DNA from: a virus
Reading direction: 5' to 3' (one strand)
Length of the DNA stretch: 29,873 nt
IMG/VR virus record: IMGVR_UViG_3300044613_001082
Coordinates: 1 to 29,873 of that record
Below the pieces are notes generated by a model. It saw only the letters and a program-made list of their open reading frames with translations. It was not told the origin of the DNA and made no database searches. Below, in pieces: positions 3,774 to 29,162 of this stretch (the stretch's first letter is position 1; every line of letters begins with the position of its first letter). The position numbers and the translations under genes were made by a program.

Positions 3774-4206
3774 CGTGGTTCATGTAATCCCTTTCGAGGC
3801 AAAACATTTTTACGACATCGACGTACAGCCCGCGCAGGCTTACGTTCGTGAGTATGTCAGCCGCGAACACATCGAGAGCCTGGAGAAGCTGAACTCGTAC
3901 ACCGCCGTCACCGATGACGGTAAGCTGCTTATGTGTTTCGGCTTCGTTGAGATTTTCCCAACCCGCGCGCTGATGTGGGGTTTTCTGAGCGCAACGTCGG
4001 GCGCACACATGACGGCGATGACGCGGATTGGAAAGTATTTGCTGGAGCAGATCCCCCACCGCCGCGTGGAGATCGAGGTCGATTGCGAGTTTGAGCAGGG
4101 CCACCGCTGGGCGCGCATCTTGGGGTTTGAACTTGAGATAGACCGCCTGAAGTGTTTTCGCCTCGATGGCGGAGACAGCGCCCTCTACTCAGTGGTGCGG
4201 CCATGA
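3766..4206 (+). CDS. Phage protein gp13-like (GNAT-fold, DUF2833-type)
   Basis: The product is 146 residues. It has the layout of the T7 gp13 family: an N-terminal segment (IPFEAKHFYDID), a central strand-turn with GKLLMCFGFVEIFPTRALMWGF, then helices and RWARILGFELE near the C-terminus, which resembles the end of an acetyltransferase (GNAT) fold. In T7, gp13 is needed for virion assembly; acetyltransferase activity in these proteins is not established. It overlaps tail tubular B by 8 bases and the gp14-like gene by 4 (ATGA), placing it where gp13 lies in T7. Confidence 0.75.
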   Translation: MVDVVHVIPFEAKHFYDIDVQPAQAYVREYVSREHIESLEKLNSYTAVTDDGKLLMCFGFVEIFPTRALMWGFLSATSGAHMTAMTRIGKYLLEQIPHRRVEIEVDCEFEQGHRWARILGFELEIDRLKCFRLDGGDSALYSVVRP

Positions 4207-4634
4207 GTTGGCCCATTGCCGGATTAGCTTTGAATGTAGCTGGATCGCTTTTTAGCGGCTCTGCCAAATCGTCTGCTGCCAAGTACAACGCCCGCGTTGC
4301 TGCGCAGAACGCCGAAATCGCGCGTCAGCAGGGTATTGCCGCTGTCGAAGCGCAGCAGCGCCAAGCCGCGCGCTCAATTGGTTCCGCGATGGCGGCGTAT
4401 GGCGCTTCGGGCGTTCAGATGGATGTCGGATCTCCGGTCGATGTTTTGGTAGACGCGGCGCGCATGGCAGAGTTGGACAAGCTGACAACCCGGTACAACT
4501 ACGAACTCAAAGCCCGTGGGTACGAAGCGGACAGCAAACTCAACTTGATGGAAGGCAGGGCCGCACGCACATCGTCGTTGTTTGGCGCTCTTGGTTCAAT
4601 CGCCAAATACGGCGCAGAAGGAGGCTTTGACTGA
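4203..4634 (+). CDS. Internal virion protein B (T7 gp14-like)
   Basis: The product is 143 residues, starting at the ATG that overlaps the previous stop (ATGA); a farther upstream in-frame ATG at 4152 would intrude 55 bases into the gp13-like gene and is less likely. Features are a short hydrophobic Gly/Ala-rich N-terminus (residues 1-22), an Ala/Gln-rich helix, the segment SAMAAYGASGVQMDVGSPVDV typical of this family (given here in part), and a charged helical C-terminus. T7 gp14 is ejected and forms the outer-membrane part of the channel for DNA entry. Length is shorter than T7 gp14 (196). Confidence 0.78.
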   Translation: MSWPIAGLALNVAGSLFSGSAKSSAAKYNARVAAQNAEIARQQGIAAVEAQQRQAARSIGSAMAAYGASGVQMDVGSPVDVLVDAARMAELDKLTTRYNYELKARGYEADSKLNLMEGRAARTSSLFGALGSIAKYGAEGGFD

Positions 4635-7258
4635 TGCCCGTCATCCAAACATACGAACAGCAGGTTCTCCCGCAGGGCCAGTTCAACGTCCAGGCGACCC
4701 CCGAACAGATGGGCGCGGGCATTGGCCGCGCCATTTCGGATTTGGGGGATACGTTCACCAAGATCGAGCAAGATAAAGGCGAGGTCTGGGCATACAAAAC
4801 CTCAAACGACGAATACGAGAAACTGCGCCAGCGTTTCGACGAGGACATGAACGGCCTCGACCCAAATGATCCTGAGTTCAACGTAAAACTCGGGAACATG
4901 ACGAGCAACTTCCAGGCTCAGATCGATAAGACAACCTCCGATCTGGTTGCAAACGCGCCGTCATCCTTTGCCGCTCGCGCTATTGAGACGCAGATGATCG
5001 GCAATAAACGCAATCTGCTTGGCTACGCCGCAGGGCAGCAGTCTCGCGTTGTCGGCGAGCAGATGAAGTCTCAACTGGACGCAAGCGCGCGAGAAGATTT
5101 GAACTCGCTGGCGCGCGATCCCAGCGACGAGAACTTCGACCGACTTCTTACCAATCGAAAGATTATGATCGGAAAGTTGAACTCCGTCTCCCCAGAGAAG
5201 AAACTGGAATGGATAAACGGCATTCAGCGCGATCTTGCCGTCGTGCAGGCCACTACCTTGGCGCGCAAGTACCCGGAGCGTTTTCTCAAAAGCATAAACG
5301 TTGAAGGCGGGAAGATTGCCGTTCCGCGCGGGGACGGAACGTCTTTTGGCGACTCCATGGCGTTTATTTTAAACGAAGAAGGCGGCTACGTTGAAAAGGA
5401 CGGCGTTTCTGGCGCACCGGCTAATTTCGGCATCAACCAGAAATACAACCCGGACATCGACGTAAAGAACTTGACGCAGGATCGCGCGGTTCAGCTTTAC
5501 AAAGAACGGTACTGGAACGCGATAGACGGCGACAATCTTCCGAAAGGTTTGGCTACCGTCGCTTTCAACGTAGCGGTCAATCAGGGCGTTTCCGCCGCCA
5601 AGGATTTGCTCGCCAAAAGCAACGGCGACCCCGCCACGTTCACTACGCTGGCGAAGCAGCGGTATGTCGCCATTGCTGCCAACAACCCCGCACAGGAAAA
5701 ATACCTGAATGGTTGGCTGGCGCGAGCGGATAAGGCTTTGGCCGCTGCAACCGCGCCGCGCAATACCCTGCCACAAGTCCAGATGCTCCCCGATGAGGCG
5801 ATTGTTTCGGCCAAACCGTCGTTTTCCGGCGCGCAATACCTGTACCCGCAGGATGTGCAGTCGGCCACACGTATTGCAGAAGGTGAGTTGAGCCAGAAAC
5901 TCAGCCTTGAACAGGCCGAGTTGAGCAACACGCTGAAAGACGTTGAGGCCGTATTGAGCGACGGAAAGGATTTTCCCGGCATCAACGACGGCAGGTTTAC
6001 GCGCGAAAATCTGGTGCGCGTGTTCGGTCCTCAGAAAGGCAAGGATTATTACGAAGGCGTCGAGAAGCTGAAGCAGATCAGCCCCATAATCTCTACGCTA
6101 TCGAAAATGAAAAACTCGGAAGTTACCGCTGCGCTCAAACAATTCGAACCCAAAGAAGGGCCTGGATACGCCGACGACAAGAAGGTGTACAATTCGTTGC
6201 GTAACCTCGTTGTTGATATGCAACAGAAGCGCAAGGAAGACTACATGGCCTGGGCGCTGAACCAGGACAACTCAAACGCAAAGCCCATAGATTGGGAAAG
6301 CCCGGACAAACTGCGCGAATCGCTGGTGGCGCGCAAAGCCATAGCGGTCAACGCCCGTATTGCCCACGGCATCGCCGCGCCGCCGTTGTCGAAGGAAGAA
6401 GCCGCTCAATTCAGTGACAGGATCAAGCGCGGCACAGCAGCAGATGCAGTCGGCATCATCAAAACAATGAAAGCCGCGTTCCGTGGCGATGATGGCCTGT
6501 ACATTGACGCCATGACGCAGATCGGCGAGCGTCTTCCGAACTTCGCTTACGCCGGAAACATCGCCATACGCAAAGGCTCCGTAAACACAGGCGTCGGAAC
6601 GCTTTCCGCCGAAGCCGTGACCGAAAAAATTGTGTCTGGCAGTTTCATCCTTGGCAACAACGGCGTCAATGAAAAGGACAAAACGCCGTCTCCGGTCAAG
6701 ATTGACCAAACCAAGTTTCGCGCAGCTTTTGACAGCGTTGTTGATAAGCGCGCTTTTGCCTTGCCGGATGAAAAGCAAAGCGCGCAGATGCTTTCGCAGA
6801 CCCTTGGTGCCGTTCAGAGTTACGTCGCCGCGCGCATCATGGAGGACGGCGGCGTAGCGCCGGATAACTACACTGCGTATGTCAAAGAAGCGGTTAAAGC
6901 CGTGACCGGCGGAACCATAAGCTACGCCAGGAACAGCACCATATTCTTGCCGTGGGGCCTCGATCAAAACACGTTTGAGTCCGTGATGCCTGCTGCCGTC
7001 AAAGAAGCCATCACCAACAATCCGCCGCTAATTCCGACGCCGATGAACGCCGGTCACATGGCTTTTGGAAACGGGTACGCGGATGGCGAGTACATCATCC
7101 TGAACCCGCTAACGCGGCAGGCGATACCTGGCAAAAACGGCGCTATCGTTGTGAAGGTCAAGCACTCAGACAACCGCGTCATCAACGCCAAGGCTGGAGG
7201 CTCACTGCCATACGGTATTCAGGGGCTGTACACGCGGGGCATTACGGATGGGAATTGA
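4634..7258 (+). CDS. Internal virion protein (gp15-like) with GH108 muralytic domain
   Basis: The product is 874 residues. The N-terminal 235 are helical and charged, as in T7-type core proteins. Residues about 240-365 form a glycoside hydrolase 108-like domain: EEGGY (candidate catalytic E249), GINQ at about 266-269, the helix LYKERYWNAIDGDNLP and the segment VAFNVAVNQG. The same motifs appear in the endolysin at 15679-16194. The rest is long and helical with no recognised domain. In T7 the muralytic activity is in gp16 and is of a different type. Here it probably opens the peptidoglycan during DNA ejection. The start overlaps the previous stop by one base. Confidence 0.82.
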   Translation: MPVIQTYEQQVLPQGQFNVQATPEQMGAGIGRAISDLGDTFTKIEQDKGEVWAYKTSNDEYEKLRQRFDEDMNGLDPNDPEFNVKLGNMTSNFQAQIDKTTSDLVANAPSSFAARAIETQMIGNKRNLLGYAAGQQSRVVGEQMKSQLDASAREDLNSLARDPSDENFDRLLTNRKIMIGKLNSVSPEKKLEWINGIQRDLAVVQATTLARKYPERFLKSINVEGGKIAVPRGDGTSFGDSMAFILNEEGGYVEKDGVSGAPANFGINQKYNPDIDVKNLTQDRAVQLYKERYWNAIDGDNLPKGLATVAFNVAVNQGVSAAKDLLAKSNGDPATFTTLAKQRYVAIAANNPAQEKYLNGWLARADKALAAATAPRNTLPQVQMLPDEAIVSAKPSFSGAQYLYPQDVQSATRIAEGELSQKLSLEQAELSNTLKDVEAVLSDGKDFPGINDGRFTRENLVRVFGPQKGKDYYEGVEKLKQISPIISTLSKMKNSEVTAALKQFEPKEGPGYADDKKVYNSLRNLVVDMQQKRKEDYMAWALNQDNSNAKPIDWESPDKLRESLVARKAIAVNARIAHGIAAPPLSKEEAAQFSDRIKRGTAADAVGIIKTMKAAFRGDDGLYIDAMTQIGERLPNFAYAGNIAIRKGSVNTGVGTLSAEAVTEKIVSGSFILGNNGVNEKDKTPSPVKIDQTKFRAAFDSVVDKRAFALPDEKQSAQMLSQTLGAVQSYVAARIMEDGGVAPDNYTAYVKEAVKAVTGGTISYARNSTIFLPWGLDQNTFESVMPAAVKEAITNNPPLIPTPMNAGHMAFGNGYADGEYIILNPLTRQAIPGKNGAIVVKVKHSDNRVINAKAGGSLPYGIQGLYTRGITDGN

Positions 7259-23896: not shown

Positions 23897-24109
23897 CTAT
23901 GTCTCGCCCTGTATCAGTTTCGATACACGGACACCGATGTCGTAGAGGTAGCCGTCGAGTTCAGATCCCGACTTCCCGCGCGCCTGGACGAACACCTCGC
24001 ACGGTATCGTCCACTCGCCGTGAGCGTCTTGCAAAAACCCCACGGATACCGCGAACGGTCCCACCTGTTCGGTGACACAGAGGCGGCGGTTGGTCAGGTT
24101 CATCGTCAT
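23897..24109 (-). CDS. Small protein, possibly TSCPD/NrdJ-C-terminus-like
   Basis: The product is 70 residues. The segment CEVFVQARGKSGSELDGYLYDIGVRVS (given in part as RGKSGSELDGYLYDIGVRVS) resembles the TSCPD domain found at the end of B12-dependent ribonucleotide reductases and as a stand-alone protein. The Cys-rich end of that domain is missing. Start ATG overlaps the ssDNA-binding protein stop (ATGA). A role in nucleotide supply is suggested by the resemblance and by its place in the replication operon, but not shown. Confidence 0.5.
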   Translation of the reverse strand: MTMNLTNRRLCVTEQVGPFAVSVGFLQDAHGEWTIPCEVFVQARGKSGSELDGYLYDIGVRVSKLIQGET

Positions 24110-24651
24110 CCGAACACATCCTCTGCGGTGTCACCGAAATCGGCCTTCGTGAACGCCTTCGAAGCTGGCATCCGGCCACCGCCCAGGGGTGCGTCGTCCT
24201 TTAACTTCTGGACGTTTTCCAACCCAAACGCGACGCCACGATTGCCAGACGTTTCATAAGCGTAGGGACGGACCTGCGCGCGAAACCAGCCGCCGGAATA
24301 GACCTCGCTCTCGTCGATGATGTCCTGCAAATCCTTGTCCACCAGACCAGGGCGGCGGTCTTCGTTGGCGGAGAAGGTCATGACCACAGCGTCATCGGGG
24401 ACGCCAGCGATGGAGTTGTCTAACTCTCCGTTTTCACGGAACGGGGAGCGCAGGTTCTTCGGCGGGGTCTTTCCCCACTTCTCAACGACACACTGCGACA
24501 CTGCCTTCTTCAGTTCTGAGATGTCCGTGTCCGGCATGAAGACGGCGCGGATCGAGAACTTCTTCTTGCCATCGGGGTTGTCCCTGGGCGCGGTGGCGCG
24601 GAACAGACCGACAAACGCGGCGCGAAAGATCGGGGTAATAATTTTCGTCAT
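24106..24651 (-). CDS. ssDNA-binding protein, DUF2815 family
   Basis: The product is 181 residues from ATG 24651, which has GGAGAA 5-6 bases upstream and follows the exonuclease stop by one base; the longer frame reads through the upstream gene's end. It has the DUF2815 pattern: FRAAFVGLFRATAP, GKKKFSIRAVFMPD, SPFRENGEL, then GGWFRAQVRPYAYE and GVAFGLENVQKLKDD, with a disordered acidic end (FGDTAEDVFG). The acidic tail is typical of phage SSBs such as T7 gp2.5, which use it to contact the polymerase. It should coat single strands in replication and recombination. Confidence 0.82.
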   Translation of the reverse strand: MTKIITPIFRAAFVGLFRATAPRDNPDGKKKFSIRAVFMPDTDISELKKAVSQCVVEKWGKTPPKNLRSPFRENGELDNSIAGVPDDAVVMTFSANEDRRPGLVDKDLQDIIDESEVYSGGWFRAQVRPYAYETSGNRGVAFGLENVQKLKDDAPLGGGRMPASKAFTKADFGDTAEDVFG

Positions 24652-24652
24652 A

Positions 24653-25384
24653 TCAATTCTCCAAGTTGAATGCCGCGCGTGCGGCCTTATTGGCCCGATG
24701 GGACCAATCCGGTGGTGCCAGCACATGGCTGGACAAATTGTTGTTCAGGTCGCGCGCCAGATCGTGCAGCGCCGTCCTGCTCTCAATGATTTTTTGCAAA
24801 AGTTCCTGCGCAGCCGTCACCTTCTCGATGATGCGCGCTTCCAGTTCAACATCGCGGCGGTACTCCACGCCTGTGATGCGTTTCTCTGGGGGGATACCCC
24901 AGCAGATGTGCATCTGGGGCGGTTCGTACCGCATGAGTTCCGGCGGCGTATCCACCATGCAGTAGATCACTTCCCAGCGCGGCTTCTGGTACAACATCAT
25001 GTAGCCCCGCGCCTGCCACTCGTACTCGGGCTTGTCAGCTTCGTCGCTGGTAATGGGAAAGGTTTCCAATGACCAGGGCGACTTGATGTCAATGCCGAAA
25101 TCCGGCTCGACTATGTCGGCTTCGCCGGTAACCCAAACGTTACTAAGGCGTTGGCTGTTCTTCTTGTACGCCGTCCCTCTAACCAGGTTGAGGAGGTCGA
25201 TGGAATCCTGTTCCACCTCGTTGCCTTTGGACACGTACTTGTTCTGGATCTGGAAATCGACCCCGAACAGAACCTGCTTCGCCACCTTCAGGATGTGGGA
25301 CTTCGCTGTCTCCGACAGCACCTCACCCTTCTTCCTGGGTTCGCCCATCAACTGGGACAAGGAACTGCACCTGAACGGCTTCAT
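24653..25384 (-). CDS. PD-(D/E)XK exonuclease (YqaJ/lambda-exo type)
   Basis: The product is 243 residues from the ATG overlapping the upstream stop (ATGA); the longer frame is an extension through the neighbour. Active-site elements: KGNEVEQDSI (Glu56 or Glu58), GEAD with Asp90, DIK at 99-101 (Asp and Lys) and the QARGY motif (Q124, Y128). The N-terminus RCSSLSQLMGEPR is typical of phage YqaJ-like exonucleases. It probably resects dsDNA ends for recombination with the adjacent ssDNA-binding protein. No RecT/Bet-type annealase is recognisable beside it. Confidence 0.8.
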   Translation of the reverse strand: MKPFRCSSLSQLMGEPRKKGEVLSETAKSHILKVAKQVLFGVDFQIQNKYVSKGNEVEQDSIDLLNLVRGTAYKKNSQRLSNVWVTGEADIVEPDFGIDIKSPWSLETFPITSDEADKPEYEWQARGYMMLYQKPRWEVIYCMVDTPPELMRYEPPQMHICWGIPPEKRITGVEYRRDVELEARIIEKVTAAQELLQKIIESRTALHDLARDLNNNLSSHVLAPPDWSHRANKAARAAFNLEN

Positions 25385-27267: not shown

Positions 27268-27488
27268 TTTTCCCTCTGGCGGCGCTCGATCTCTCGGTTG
27301 ATGTAGTATTGGGCCTTCAACAGGTCGGCCATCGGGTCGCCCTTGTGATCGGCGCGCCATACGTACTTGATGACGTTGCCCAGGTTGAAGTTGAAGGCTT
27401 CGGTGATCGTTATCGCCTCCACCCCGCTGGGGTGGTCGGTGTAGTGGCCCGGATTGTTGATCGGGTCGGTCTTTTTACGCATGTTCAT
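27264..27488 (-). CDS. DUF3310 family protein
   Basis: The product is 74 residues. The sequence shows the DUF3310 pattern: NPGHYTDHPSGVEAITITEA (in part), then NLGNVIKYVWRADHKG and LLKAQYYINREIER. The family includes T7 gp1.7-like proteins linked to nucleotide kinase activity, but the role of short members is unclear. Start ATG overlaps the stop of the upstream 69-residue gene, with AGGAG just before; its stop overlaps the helicase GTG. Confidence 0.85.
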   Translation of the reverse strand: MNMRKKTDPINNPGHYTDHPSGVEAITITEAFNFNLGNVIKYVWRADHKGDPMADLLKAQYYINREIERRQREK

Positions 27489-27694
27489 TCCTCTCCTAGT
27501 GCTTCGCTGGCGATTTCAGTGAAGGTCGCAGGATTACATCCCGCTGCGTTTCCGTAAGAGGCGATTCGCTCCAGCGCCGCACGCAGCCGCGTCACCTCTG
27601 CCTCAAGGGCTTCGATGCGGTCGGCGGCGGTTTCCATATCGCCGTCTGTTGGTTCGGAATCCATGCGCAGTCGCTTAACAATGTCTGTCACCAT
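27485..27694 (-). CDS. Small coiled-coil accessory protein with duplicated C-terminus
   Basis: The product is 69 residues from ATG 27694 (GAGG about 7 bases upstream). It opens MVTDIVKRLR, continues through an acidic region and a heptad helix (ADRIEALEAEVTRLRAALER), and ends GNAAGCNPATFTEIASEALG then EE. Its last 22 codons lie in the 67-bp repeat shared with 28256-28322. The general type (EALEAEVARLR-like helix) is common in phage early accessory proteins. Function unknown. The long open frame upstream to 27940 is a shadow over the neighbour. Confidence 0.6.
   Translation of the reverse strand: MVTDIVKRLRMDSEPTDGDMETAADRIEALEAEVTRLRAALERIASYGNAAGCNPATFTEIASEALGEE
27488..27554. repeat. 67-bp direct repeat, copy 1
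   Basis: 64 of 67 bases match the copy at 28256-28322, and the first 48 are identical. It encodes the shared C-terminal tail (minus strand) and includes the ribosome-binding region for the next gene (DUF3310). The two copies are 768 bases apart. Confidence 0.9.
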
Positions 27695-27705
27695 TTCTGC
27701 CCTCG

Positions 27706-28005
27706 TTATCCCATTGTCCCGCGCTTGCTTGACCATTCTTGAGGTCGCGCAGCGTACAGTTCGTCGGACAGGTATTCGCAGACTTTCCAATTGCCTTCTC
27801 GTTCTAAAAATTTCATCACTTCTCTCACGGCCACTCGCGCCTGCCACACCGCCCGCTCTCCGTTGCACCACCTGTTGCCTTCTTGCTCCTGCATCTGCGG
27901 GCAGGTGCACACAAAGCCAGGCACATTGCCAGCCTCGCAAATGCGAGCGGCCACCGACTCAATTAAATTGCGCCTTCTGTTTTCATACGGGCCTGTGTTC
28001 GTCAC
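27706..28005 (-). CDS. Cys-rich small protein, paralogue B
   Basis: The product is 99 residues from the GTG at 28005 that overlaps the upstream stop (GTGA), with GAGGAG 8 bases before it; an in-frame ATG at 28047 would overlap that gene by 46 bases. It carries C-X9-C-X-C-X11-C (ICEAGNVPGFVCTCP, EGNRWCN) followed by RAVWQAR. A homologue with identical spacing is at 28363-28665. The four Cys may bind a metal. No family recognised. Confidence 0.62.
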   Translation of the reverse strand: MTNTGPYENRRRNLIESVAARICEAGNVPGFVCTCPQMQEQEGNRWCNGERAVWQARVAVREVMKFLEREGNWKVCEYLSDELYAARPQEWSSKRGTMG

Positions 28006-28253
28006 GATTTTCTCTCCTCTTTCCCGAAGTTTTCTCTCGCCGCGCACATGCCGTTTTCCAGCCCGGTCAGATAGACTGACAGAATGGCTTCGTGGAACGC
28101 GCAGCCAGTGTTGGTCGCTTTGGTGAATACGTCAAAGGCAAGATTGCCTAGGTGCCCCTTCATGCCGTCTGGCATGACCACGCGGTCGAGCCCGTACGGT
28201 TTCATGCCGCGTCTCATGAGTTGCCAATCAAGTCTGTGATTGTTGTAGGTCAT
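28002..28253 (-). CDS. Small hypothetical protein
   Basis: The product is 83 residues from the ATG overlapping the upstream 38-residue gene's stop (ATGA). It has a basic, Met-rich N-terminal half (RRGMKPYGLDRVVMPDGMKG), then a predicted helix (FHEAILSVYLTGLENGMCAAR). No motif recognised. It sits between the two Cys-rich paralogues and would be lost if the flanking 67-bp repeats recombined. Confidence 0.55.
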   Translation of the reverse strand: MTYNNHRLDWQLMRRGMKPYGLDRVVMPDGMKGHLGNLAFDVFTKATNTGCAFHEAILSVYLTGLENGMCAARENFGKEERKS

Positions 28254-28366
28254 GCTTCCTCTCCTAGTGCTTCGCTGGCGATTTCAGTGAAGGTCGCAGG
28301 ATTGCATCCAGCCGCGTTTCCGACAGGAGAGGCGAAGCGAAATCTGGGGCCTGTCCACTCGCTCAC
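28250..28366 (-). CDS. 38-residue mini-protein with the duplicated C-terminal tail
   Basis: Start is GTG 28366 overlapping the upstream stop (GTGA), with GGAGG about 9-13 bases before. The first 15 residues (SEWTGPRFRFASPV) are unique; the rest, GNAAGCNPATFTEIASEALG plus EEA, matches the end of the 69-residue protein at 27485-27694. Its stop overlaps the next ATG. It looks like a remnant of a gene similar to that one, kept in frame and coupled to its neighbours. It may be functional or only a coupling relic. Confidence 0.45.
   Translation of the reverse strand: MSEWTGPRFRFASPVGNAAGCNPATFTEIASEALGEEA
28256..28322. repeat. 67-bp direct repeat, copy 2
   Basis: Matches 27488-27554 at 64 of 67 bases in the same orientation. 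It covers the C-terminal codons of the 38-residue mini-gene and the ribosome-binding region of the following gene. Confidence 0.9.
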
Positions 28367-28665
28367 TTCCCTTCCTCCCCTGCCGCAGCGCGAATGGCTG
28401 CTGAGAGCGTTTTGGCTTCTGCGAGTGACGGGAACCATTCGTCCCTGATTACGCTCTCCCGTTCGTTGCGATAAGCCTGCACCATCTCATCGCTGACATT
28501 GTCCGCAAGCCACAGCAGCGCGGCGCGTGCTTGATGAACTGCCCGATTGTGGTTGCACCAGTTGTTGCCTTCAGGCTCGTAAGGCACGGGGCATGTACAC
28601 TTGAACCCGTCCACGTTCTCCGTCTCGCAGATAAGCCGCGCCATACCCTTCACGATGTCGGTCAT
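28363..28665 (-). CDS. Cys-rich small protein, paralogue A
   Basis: The product is 100 residues from the ATG overlapping the resolvase stop (ATGA). It begins MTDIVKGMARLI, similar to the start of the 69-residue protein (MVTDIVKRLR), and carries C-X9-C-X-C-X11-C (ICETENVDGFKCTCP, EGNNWCN) followed by RAVHQARAA. Cys spacing is identical to paralogue B, but the rest is diverged. A small metal-binding domain is plausible; function unknown. Confidence 0.65.
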   Translation of the reverse strand: MTDIVKGMARLICETENVDGFKCTCPVPYEPEGNNWCNHNRAVHQARAALLWLADNVSDEMVQAYRNERESVIRDEWFPSLAEAKTLSAAIRAAAGEEGK

Positions 28666-29162
28666 GCTTCCTCCCTGGAAATGGCTTGCATCCCGTACAT
28701 CGCAATCAAAGCGGCCTCTGCTGCGCCGTCGTCCAGGGTCTTGGAGAATCGGGGGGCGTGATTGGGCCAGAGTTTGGATGCCAGCGCGCGGGAGCGTGCT
28801 TTGTGAACTGATGTCGTCTCATGCTCGGCGCGTGCTTGTAGCCCCACCGACCCGCGCCAGACGTGCGGTGCGACGATCCTCAGATTGAACCCCAGCGCCT
28901 CTACAGTCCCGTGAACAATGCCCGCCGCCAAGCCAAAGCGGAATTGGTGCGCTTGCCTGGGGCGGCTTGTGACGAACTCAACGTAGACGAGGGATGCGGC
29001 GGCTTCTTCCAGGATGCGGGCCAGAGCGGGTACGTCAATTTCGACCGTGTTCTTCGGGCGGCGCGTCGGCATCCTCCCGGCGGCAACCAGTTCGAAGTTG
29101 GGCGCTATGACGGCCCATCCACCCGTGAAGCCGGGATCGATGCCGACGACGTTCTCTATCAT
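28662..29162 (-). CDS. RuvC-like Holliday junction resolvase
   Basis: The product is 166 residues, the size of RuvC, from the ATG overlapping the Cro-like gene's stop (ATGA). Catalytic acidic residues fit the RNase H-fold layout: Asp9 in VVGIDPGFTGG, Glu62 in VYVEFVTSRP, and Asp144/145 with Glu149 in DDGAAEAALIA. Another RuvC-like trait is AHQFRFGLAAGIVHGTVEAL (helix after strand 4). It would resolve branched DNA before packaging. It is the second gene of the leftward operon. Confidence 0.85.
   Translation of the reverse strand: MIENVVGIDPGFTGGWAVIAPNFELVAAGRMPTRRPKNTVEIDVPALARILEEAAASLVYVEFVTSRPRQAHQFRFGLAAGIVHGTVEALGFNLRIVAPHVWRGSVGLQARAEHETTSVHKARSRALASKLWPNHAPRFSKTLDDGAAEAALIAMYGMQAISREEA

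Follow-up and report, generated by a model that had tools for sequence, protein, structure and literature searches.

The segment considered here lies in a window of 29,873 nucleotides, the whole stretch of viral DNA that was analysed. Its genes are all on the minus strand and follow one another in transcription order as the RuvC-like resolvase, A1, B1, C, A2, B2, DUF3310, and the SNF2-type helicase. The RuvC-like Holliday junction resolvase (phrog_1770, 28662–29162) constitutes the upstream anchor, and the DUF3310 gene (PF11753, 27264–27488) the downstream anchor of the insertion site. A1 (28363–28665, phrog_33473) encodes a 100-aa protein with a Cys-rich domain and a WLADNVSDEM...AIRAAAGEEGK tail, and A2 (27706–28005) encodes a second Cys-rich-domain protein, of 99 aa. 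B2 (27485–27694, 69 aa) is a complete representative of a common and widespread type of small coiled-coil protein, 'DIVKRLR...AADRIEALEAEV', whereas B1 (28250–28366) is a 38-aa ORF that lacks the coiled-coil body and consists of the B-family tail only, the two having in common only about their last 22–26 residues. Between the two A–B pairs lies gene C (28002–28253, 83 aa), for which no family match was obtained and which is also found elsewhere with other neighbours, as in L044. The L044 relative (4000–4334) contains an in-frame TGA (GMKP*) and is apparently either broken or started downstream; the same phage contig has, at 4609–4989, a long simple-repeat ORF rich in Gly, Ser, Tyr, and Asp. 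The A1 protein has no match among named phages, and a search of bacterial genomes gave no match to the A family; the helicase relatives in those genomes are just 23–40% identical, which is too distant for a host to be named. The predicted structure of A1 has a mean pLDDT of 52 and does not permit a conclusion on its fold.

The genes between the RuvC-like and DUF3310 genes stand close together, either overlapping by 4 nt (ATGA/GTGA) or separated by short spacers. Most junctions are built such that the final codons of the upstream gene (EEA, EEGK, GEE, EERKS) also serve as the Shine-Dalgarno (SD) sequence of the next one, so that the gene ends are alike. The junction between the RuvC-like gene and A1 (28656–28673, minus strand) is identical at 17 of 18 positions to the B1/C junction at 28244–28261, with the core GAGGAAGCATGACC. 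B1 starts with a GTG that overlaps the stop codon of A1, and its SD sits in the A1 end.

Both B genes end in the longest direct repeat of the window, 67 bp at 27488–27554 and 28256–28322, with 64/67 positions identical, a spacing of 768 bp, and an exact core of 48 bp; by chance, the longest exact repeat averages 14.6 bp and never exceeds 17 bp in 50 first-order Markov sequences matched in composition. These exact coordinates bear out the tail repeat described in the initial annotation, and the order that it gave, a Cys-rich gene followed by one with a GNAAGCNP tail, is indeed present twice on the minus strand. The repeat encodes the C-terminal 22 codons of B1 and B2, GNAAGCNPATFTEIASEALGEE, and its end coincides with the start codon of the following gene, which is gene C after B1 (copy 1, 28256–28322) and DUF3310 after B2 (copy 2, 27488–27554). 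The GEE codons in the tail (GGAGAGGAA) double as the SD of that next gene. Beyond the upstream end of the 67 bp, about 10 further bp can be matched if a 3-nt indel is allowed, after which the similarity ends, which leaves B1 as a tail only. The three differences between the copies (GCA/GCG, GCG/GCT, and TGT/TGC) are all synonymous and none is nonsynonymous, which for three random changes has a probability of about 0.014. This suggests that both copies were translated during their divergence, and the coding tail seems to have remained under selection in each of them.

Since the window is a single metagenomic record, it was considered whether the assembler had placed one repeat copy twice. However, the copies are told apart by the three synonymous differences and by their flanks, and another contig, 3300042294_002952, matches the window with 100% identity over 3372 bp, though perhaps it is from the same site. 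Such an artefact is already largely refuted, and we regard its probability as extremely small. Another possibility is that selection acting chiefly at the level of RNA or translation maintains the identity of the tails, the tail being an SD-bearing or structured element. It does contain an SD and end at a start codon, as do the Start-Associated Sequences (SAS) of Cluster K mycobacteriophages, a 13-bp motif with 11–19 copies per genome (PMC3203893), with which it shares the position of an SD-containing repeat just upstream of start codons and beside genes of different families. In contrast to the many copies of a short consensus in SAS, however, only two copies are found here, and these are 67-bp coding tails that specify 22 residues with synonymous-only change. 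The predicted folding is no better than that of shuffled sequences (z of −1.2 and −0.7) and differs between the copies, so the tail lacks the stable conserved fold of a structured RNA. A regulatory repeat of this kind is thus very unlikely. As a tRNA or a known RNA element the tail was likewise rejected, with no tRNA and no Rfam match found and a folding that is not significant; matches to its DNA pattern in L034 and L036 are coincidental, one of them being a tRNA-like stretch.

The locus had initially been read as a diverged tandem duplication of a cassette. On this view, a single A–B unit would have been duplicated in the window phage, after which the Cys-rich genes diverged rapidly, B1 lost its body, and the tail underwent gene conversion. 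The twofold A-then-B order, the homology of the A1 and A2 domains, and the nearly identical tails speak for it. However, the similarity between A1 and A2 is confined to a 48-aa Cys-rich domain (26/48 residues, 54%), with nothing clear outside it, and the synonymous sites of this domain are saturated (ps 0.76), as compared to a dS of about 0.22 between the tail copies. Such saturation is difficult to reconcile with a duplication in this phage, as its nearest relatives, with about 8–10% flank divergence, do not have the block. The C-terminal half of A1 resembles proteins of other phages (L039, L040, and L041) in which the Cys domain is absent, rather than A2, and A1 scores better against L038 than against A2. 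In addition, gene C intervenes and B1 is without the body of B2. Similarity of comparable age across the whole unit, by which a segmental tandem duplication is recognized, is not found, and the cassette duplication is considered improbable. The divergence of A1 from A2 most likely predates their coming together here, and the tail event is recent. The earlier suggestion that the tail was copied more recently is consistent with this, while gene conversion, which was also proposed, and one short tail transfer fit equally well.

The comparison with close relatives shows that the site can be empty. In L047 and L048 the helicase is 95% identical to that of the window and the flanks are 90–92% identical at the DNA level, yet the similarity stops at window position 28668 and resumes at 27495, the whole five-gene block being absent. 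The RuvC-like gene is directly joined to DUF3310 in these two loci, and also in L049 and L050, which are more distant (70%) and likewise have no genes in between. The empty junction in L047 reads CATTTCAAGAGAGGAATGAACATG, and the two edges of the filled site in the window read CATTTCCAGGGAGGAAGCATGACC and CTAGGAGAGGAATGAACATG, from which it follows that an SD sequence of about 6–10 bp is common to both edges; the junction sequences have AG(A/G)GAGGAA in common. The empty sites of L049 and L050 favour a gain in the lineage of the window. Other genes occupy the interval in more distant relatives, so that gain versus loss is judged from the four nearest empty sites.

The site can also be filled differently. 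In L046 another gene, of 85 aa, precedes DUF3310 and runs on into the DUF3310 start, having in common with B2 only the last ~20 nt of the tail, SD included; three further contigs carry the YPPQDPAVV tail of this gene on dissimilar bodies. In L050, a Cys-rich gene and, behind it, a coil gene lie one junction upstream, between the HTH and RuvC-like genes. The dS of the RuvC-like and helicase genes against L046–L048 is 0.26–0.44. The accessory-gene turnover proposed in the initial annotation is thus corroborated by the empty sites in L047–L050, the differently filled one in L046, and the gene pair one junction upstream in L050. Recombination across the tails would, as it also stated, remove 768 bp, taking out genes C and A2 entirely along with one B body, with the qualification that B1 is not a full second copy of B2. 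What the related phages have lost or never gained is the whole block, while the 768-bp deletion form with a single tail was not found in the pattern scan of viral contigs, in which 3300042294_002952 was the sole further record to carry the tail and has both copies.

Some further variation was observed around this site. The DUF3310 gene of the window has 96% DNA identity to that of L047 and just 73% to that of L048, the latter version resembling that of L046, which is a putative allele replacement independent of the flanks. A 187-aa gene with a weak CapR homology domain match lies between DUF3310 and the helicase in L047 (4862–5425) and L048 (5478–6041), where the helicase N-terminus also differs from that of the window, forming a second variable junction beside the first.

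On the basis of these results, we consider it probable that the early operon of this temperate phage has an accessory slot between the RuvC-like and DUF3310 genes, where small genes are gained, lost, and fused at gene-end/SD junctions that act as short homologous boundaries. The repeat anatomy, the embedded SD, and the empty and differently filled sites are directly visible, and we infer from them the recombination that adds or removes the small genes. According to this proposal, small genes would enter and exit by recombination within gene-end/SD sequences, and A1 and A2 would have been acquired with their shared domain already diverged. Later, a B-gene 3′ end with its SD may have been joined behind A1, or an older B1 may have lost its body, resulting in two near-identical tails, between which future recombination could delete C, A2, and one B body. 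Plausible agents are the phage's own candidate recombination enzymes, both encoded nearby on the minus strand: an exonuclease (24653–25384, phrog_5715, with a weak match to the RecE-like phrog_434) and a Gp2.5-like ssDNA-binding/annealing protein (24106–24651, PF10991, phrog_112). Against boundary recombination stands the empty-site homology of only ~6–10 bp, which is short for homologous recombination, and illegitimate exchange near gene ends also fits this homology. It also counts against it that the tail is carried by only two contigs, identical to each other, and that no relative has the single-tail recombinant.

The anatomy of this locus has a close counterpart in mycobacteriophage Island3, where the adjacent small genes 67 and 68 have unlike bodies and about 60 bp in common at their 3′ ends (PMC3029335, Fig. 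5C), similar in both protein and DNA (PMC3029335). Brujita has a single recombinant copy of this tail and lacks the extra gene (PMC3029335), and the authors inferred recombination between the tails, akin to that at short conserved boundary sequences (PMC3029335). The window likewise has neighbouring genes with unlike bodies and a common 3′-end repeat, and its close relatives L047 and L048 are without the extra genes at the same junction. However, unlike in Brujita, where the single-copy recombinant is seen, it is the whole five-gene block that is missing from these relatives, and the 768-bp recombinant is not observed. In the published case such a recombinant speaks for the mechanism more than it defines the anatomy. 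With the short boundary sequences at phage module junctions (PMC3029335) the window shares short gene-end homologies flanking exchanged genes, while its boundary differs in being the coding end of the upstream gene plus an SD, with only ~6–10 bp of homology at the empty site. The window presents the Island3/Brujita anatomy in a phage group unrelated to theirs. With the block missing from close relatives, it is an ordinary, if clear, example of small-gene gain and loss at conserved gene ends, and as the same anatomy has been published for Island3/Brujita, the finding is confirmatory for the specialist. Its value is that of a well-bounded natural example of small phage genes being gained and fused where the end of one gene is also the ribosome-binding site of the next.

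Shared gene tails recur elsewhere in a scan of ~1.29 Mb of loci selected by similarity to B2 or the helicase, their frequency being biased by this choice of loci resembling the window proteins. Neighbouring genes with shared 3′ ends and unlike bodies are found in L067, L003, and L118, the shared tail in L067 being 41 nt, exact, and in the same RuvC–helicase interval, and tail/SD/start junctions are held in common in L028, L032, and L008. Taking the window locus together with L003, L008, L032, L046, L067, L116, and L118, one may tentatively suggest, as a rather doubtful generalization, that many temperate phage early operons contain arrays of small genes of the coiled-coil and Cys-rich types whose bodies and C-terminal tails are interchangeable parts, and in which the tail codons that form the next SD are the standard shuffling joints. 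The existence of several independent shared-tail loci makes the idea that small phage genes are gained and fused at such gene ends testable by survey. In L008 (540–2276), about seven small coiled-coil genes stand in tandem, two of which have an 89% identical 178-nt 3′ region and different N-terminal parts. The phage contig L094 (44–2007) contains highly repetitive ORFs with ASALAEYNRVTA-like units in several neighbouring copies.
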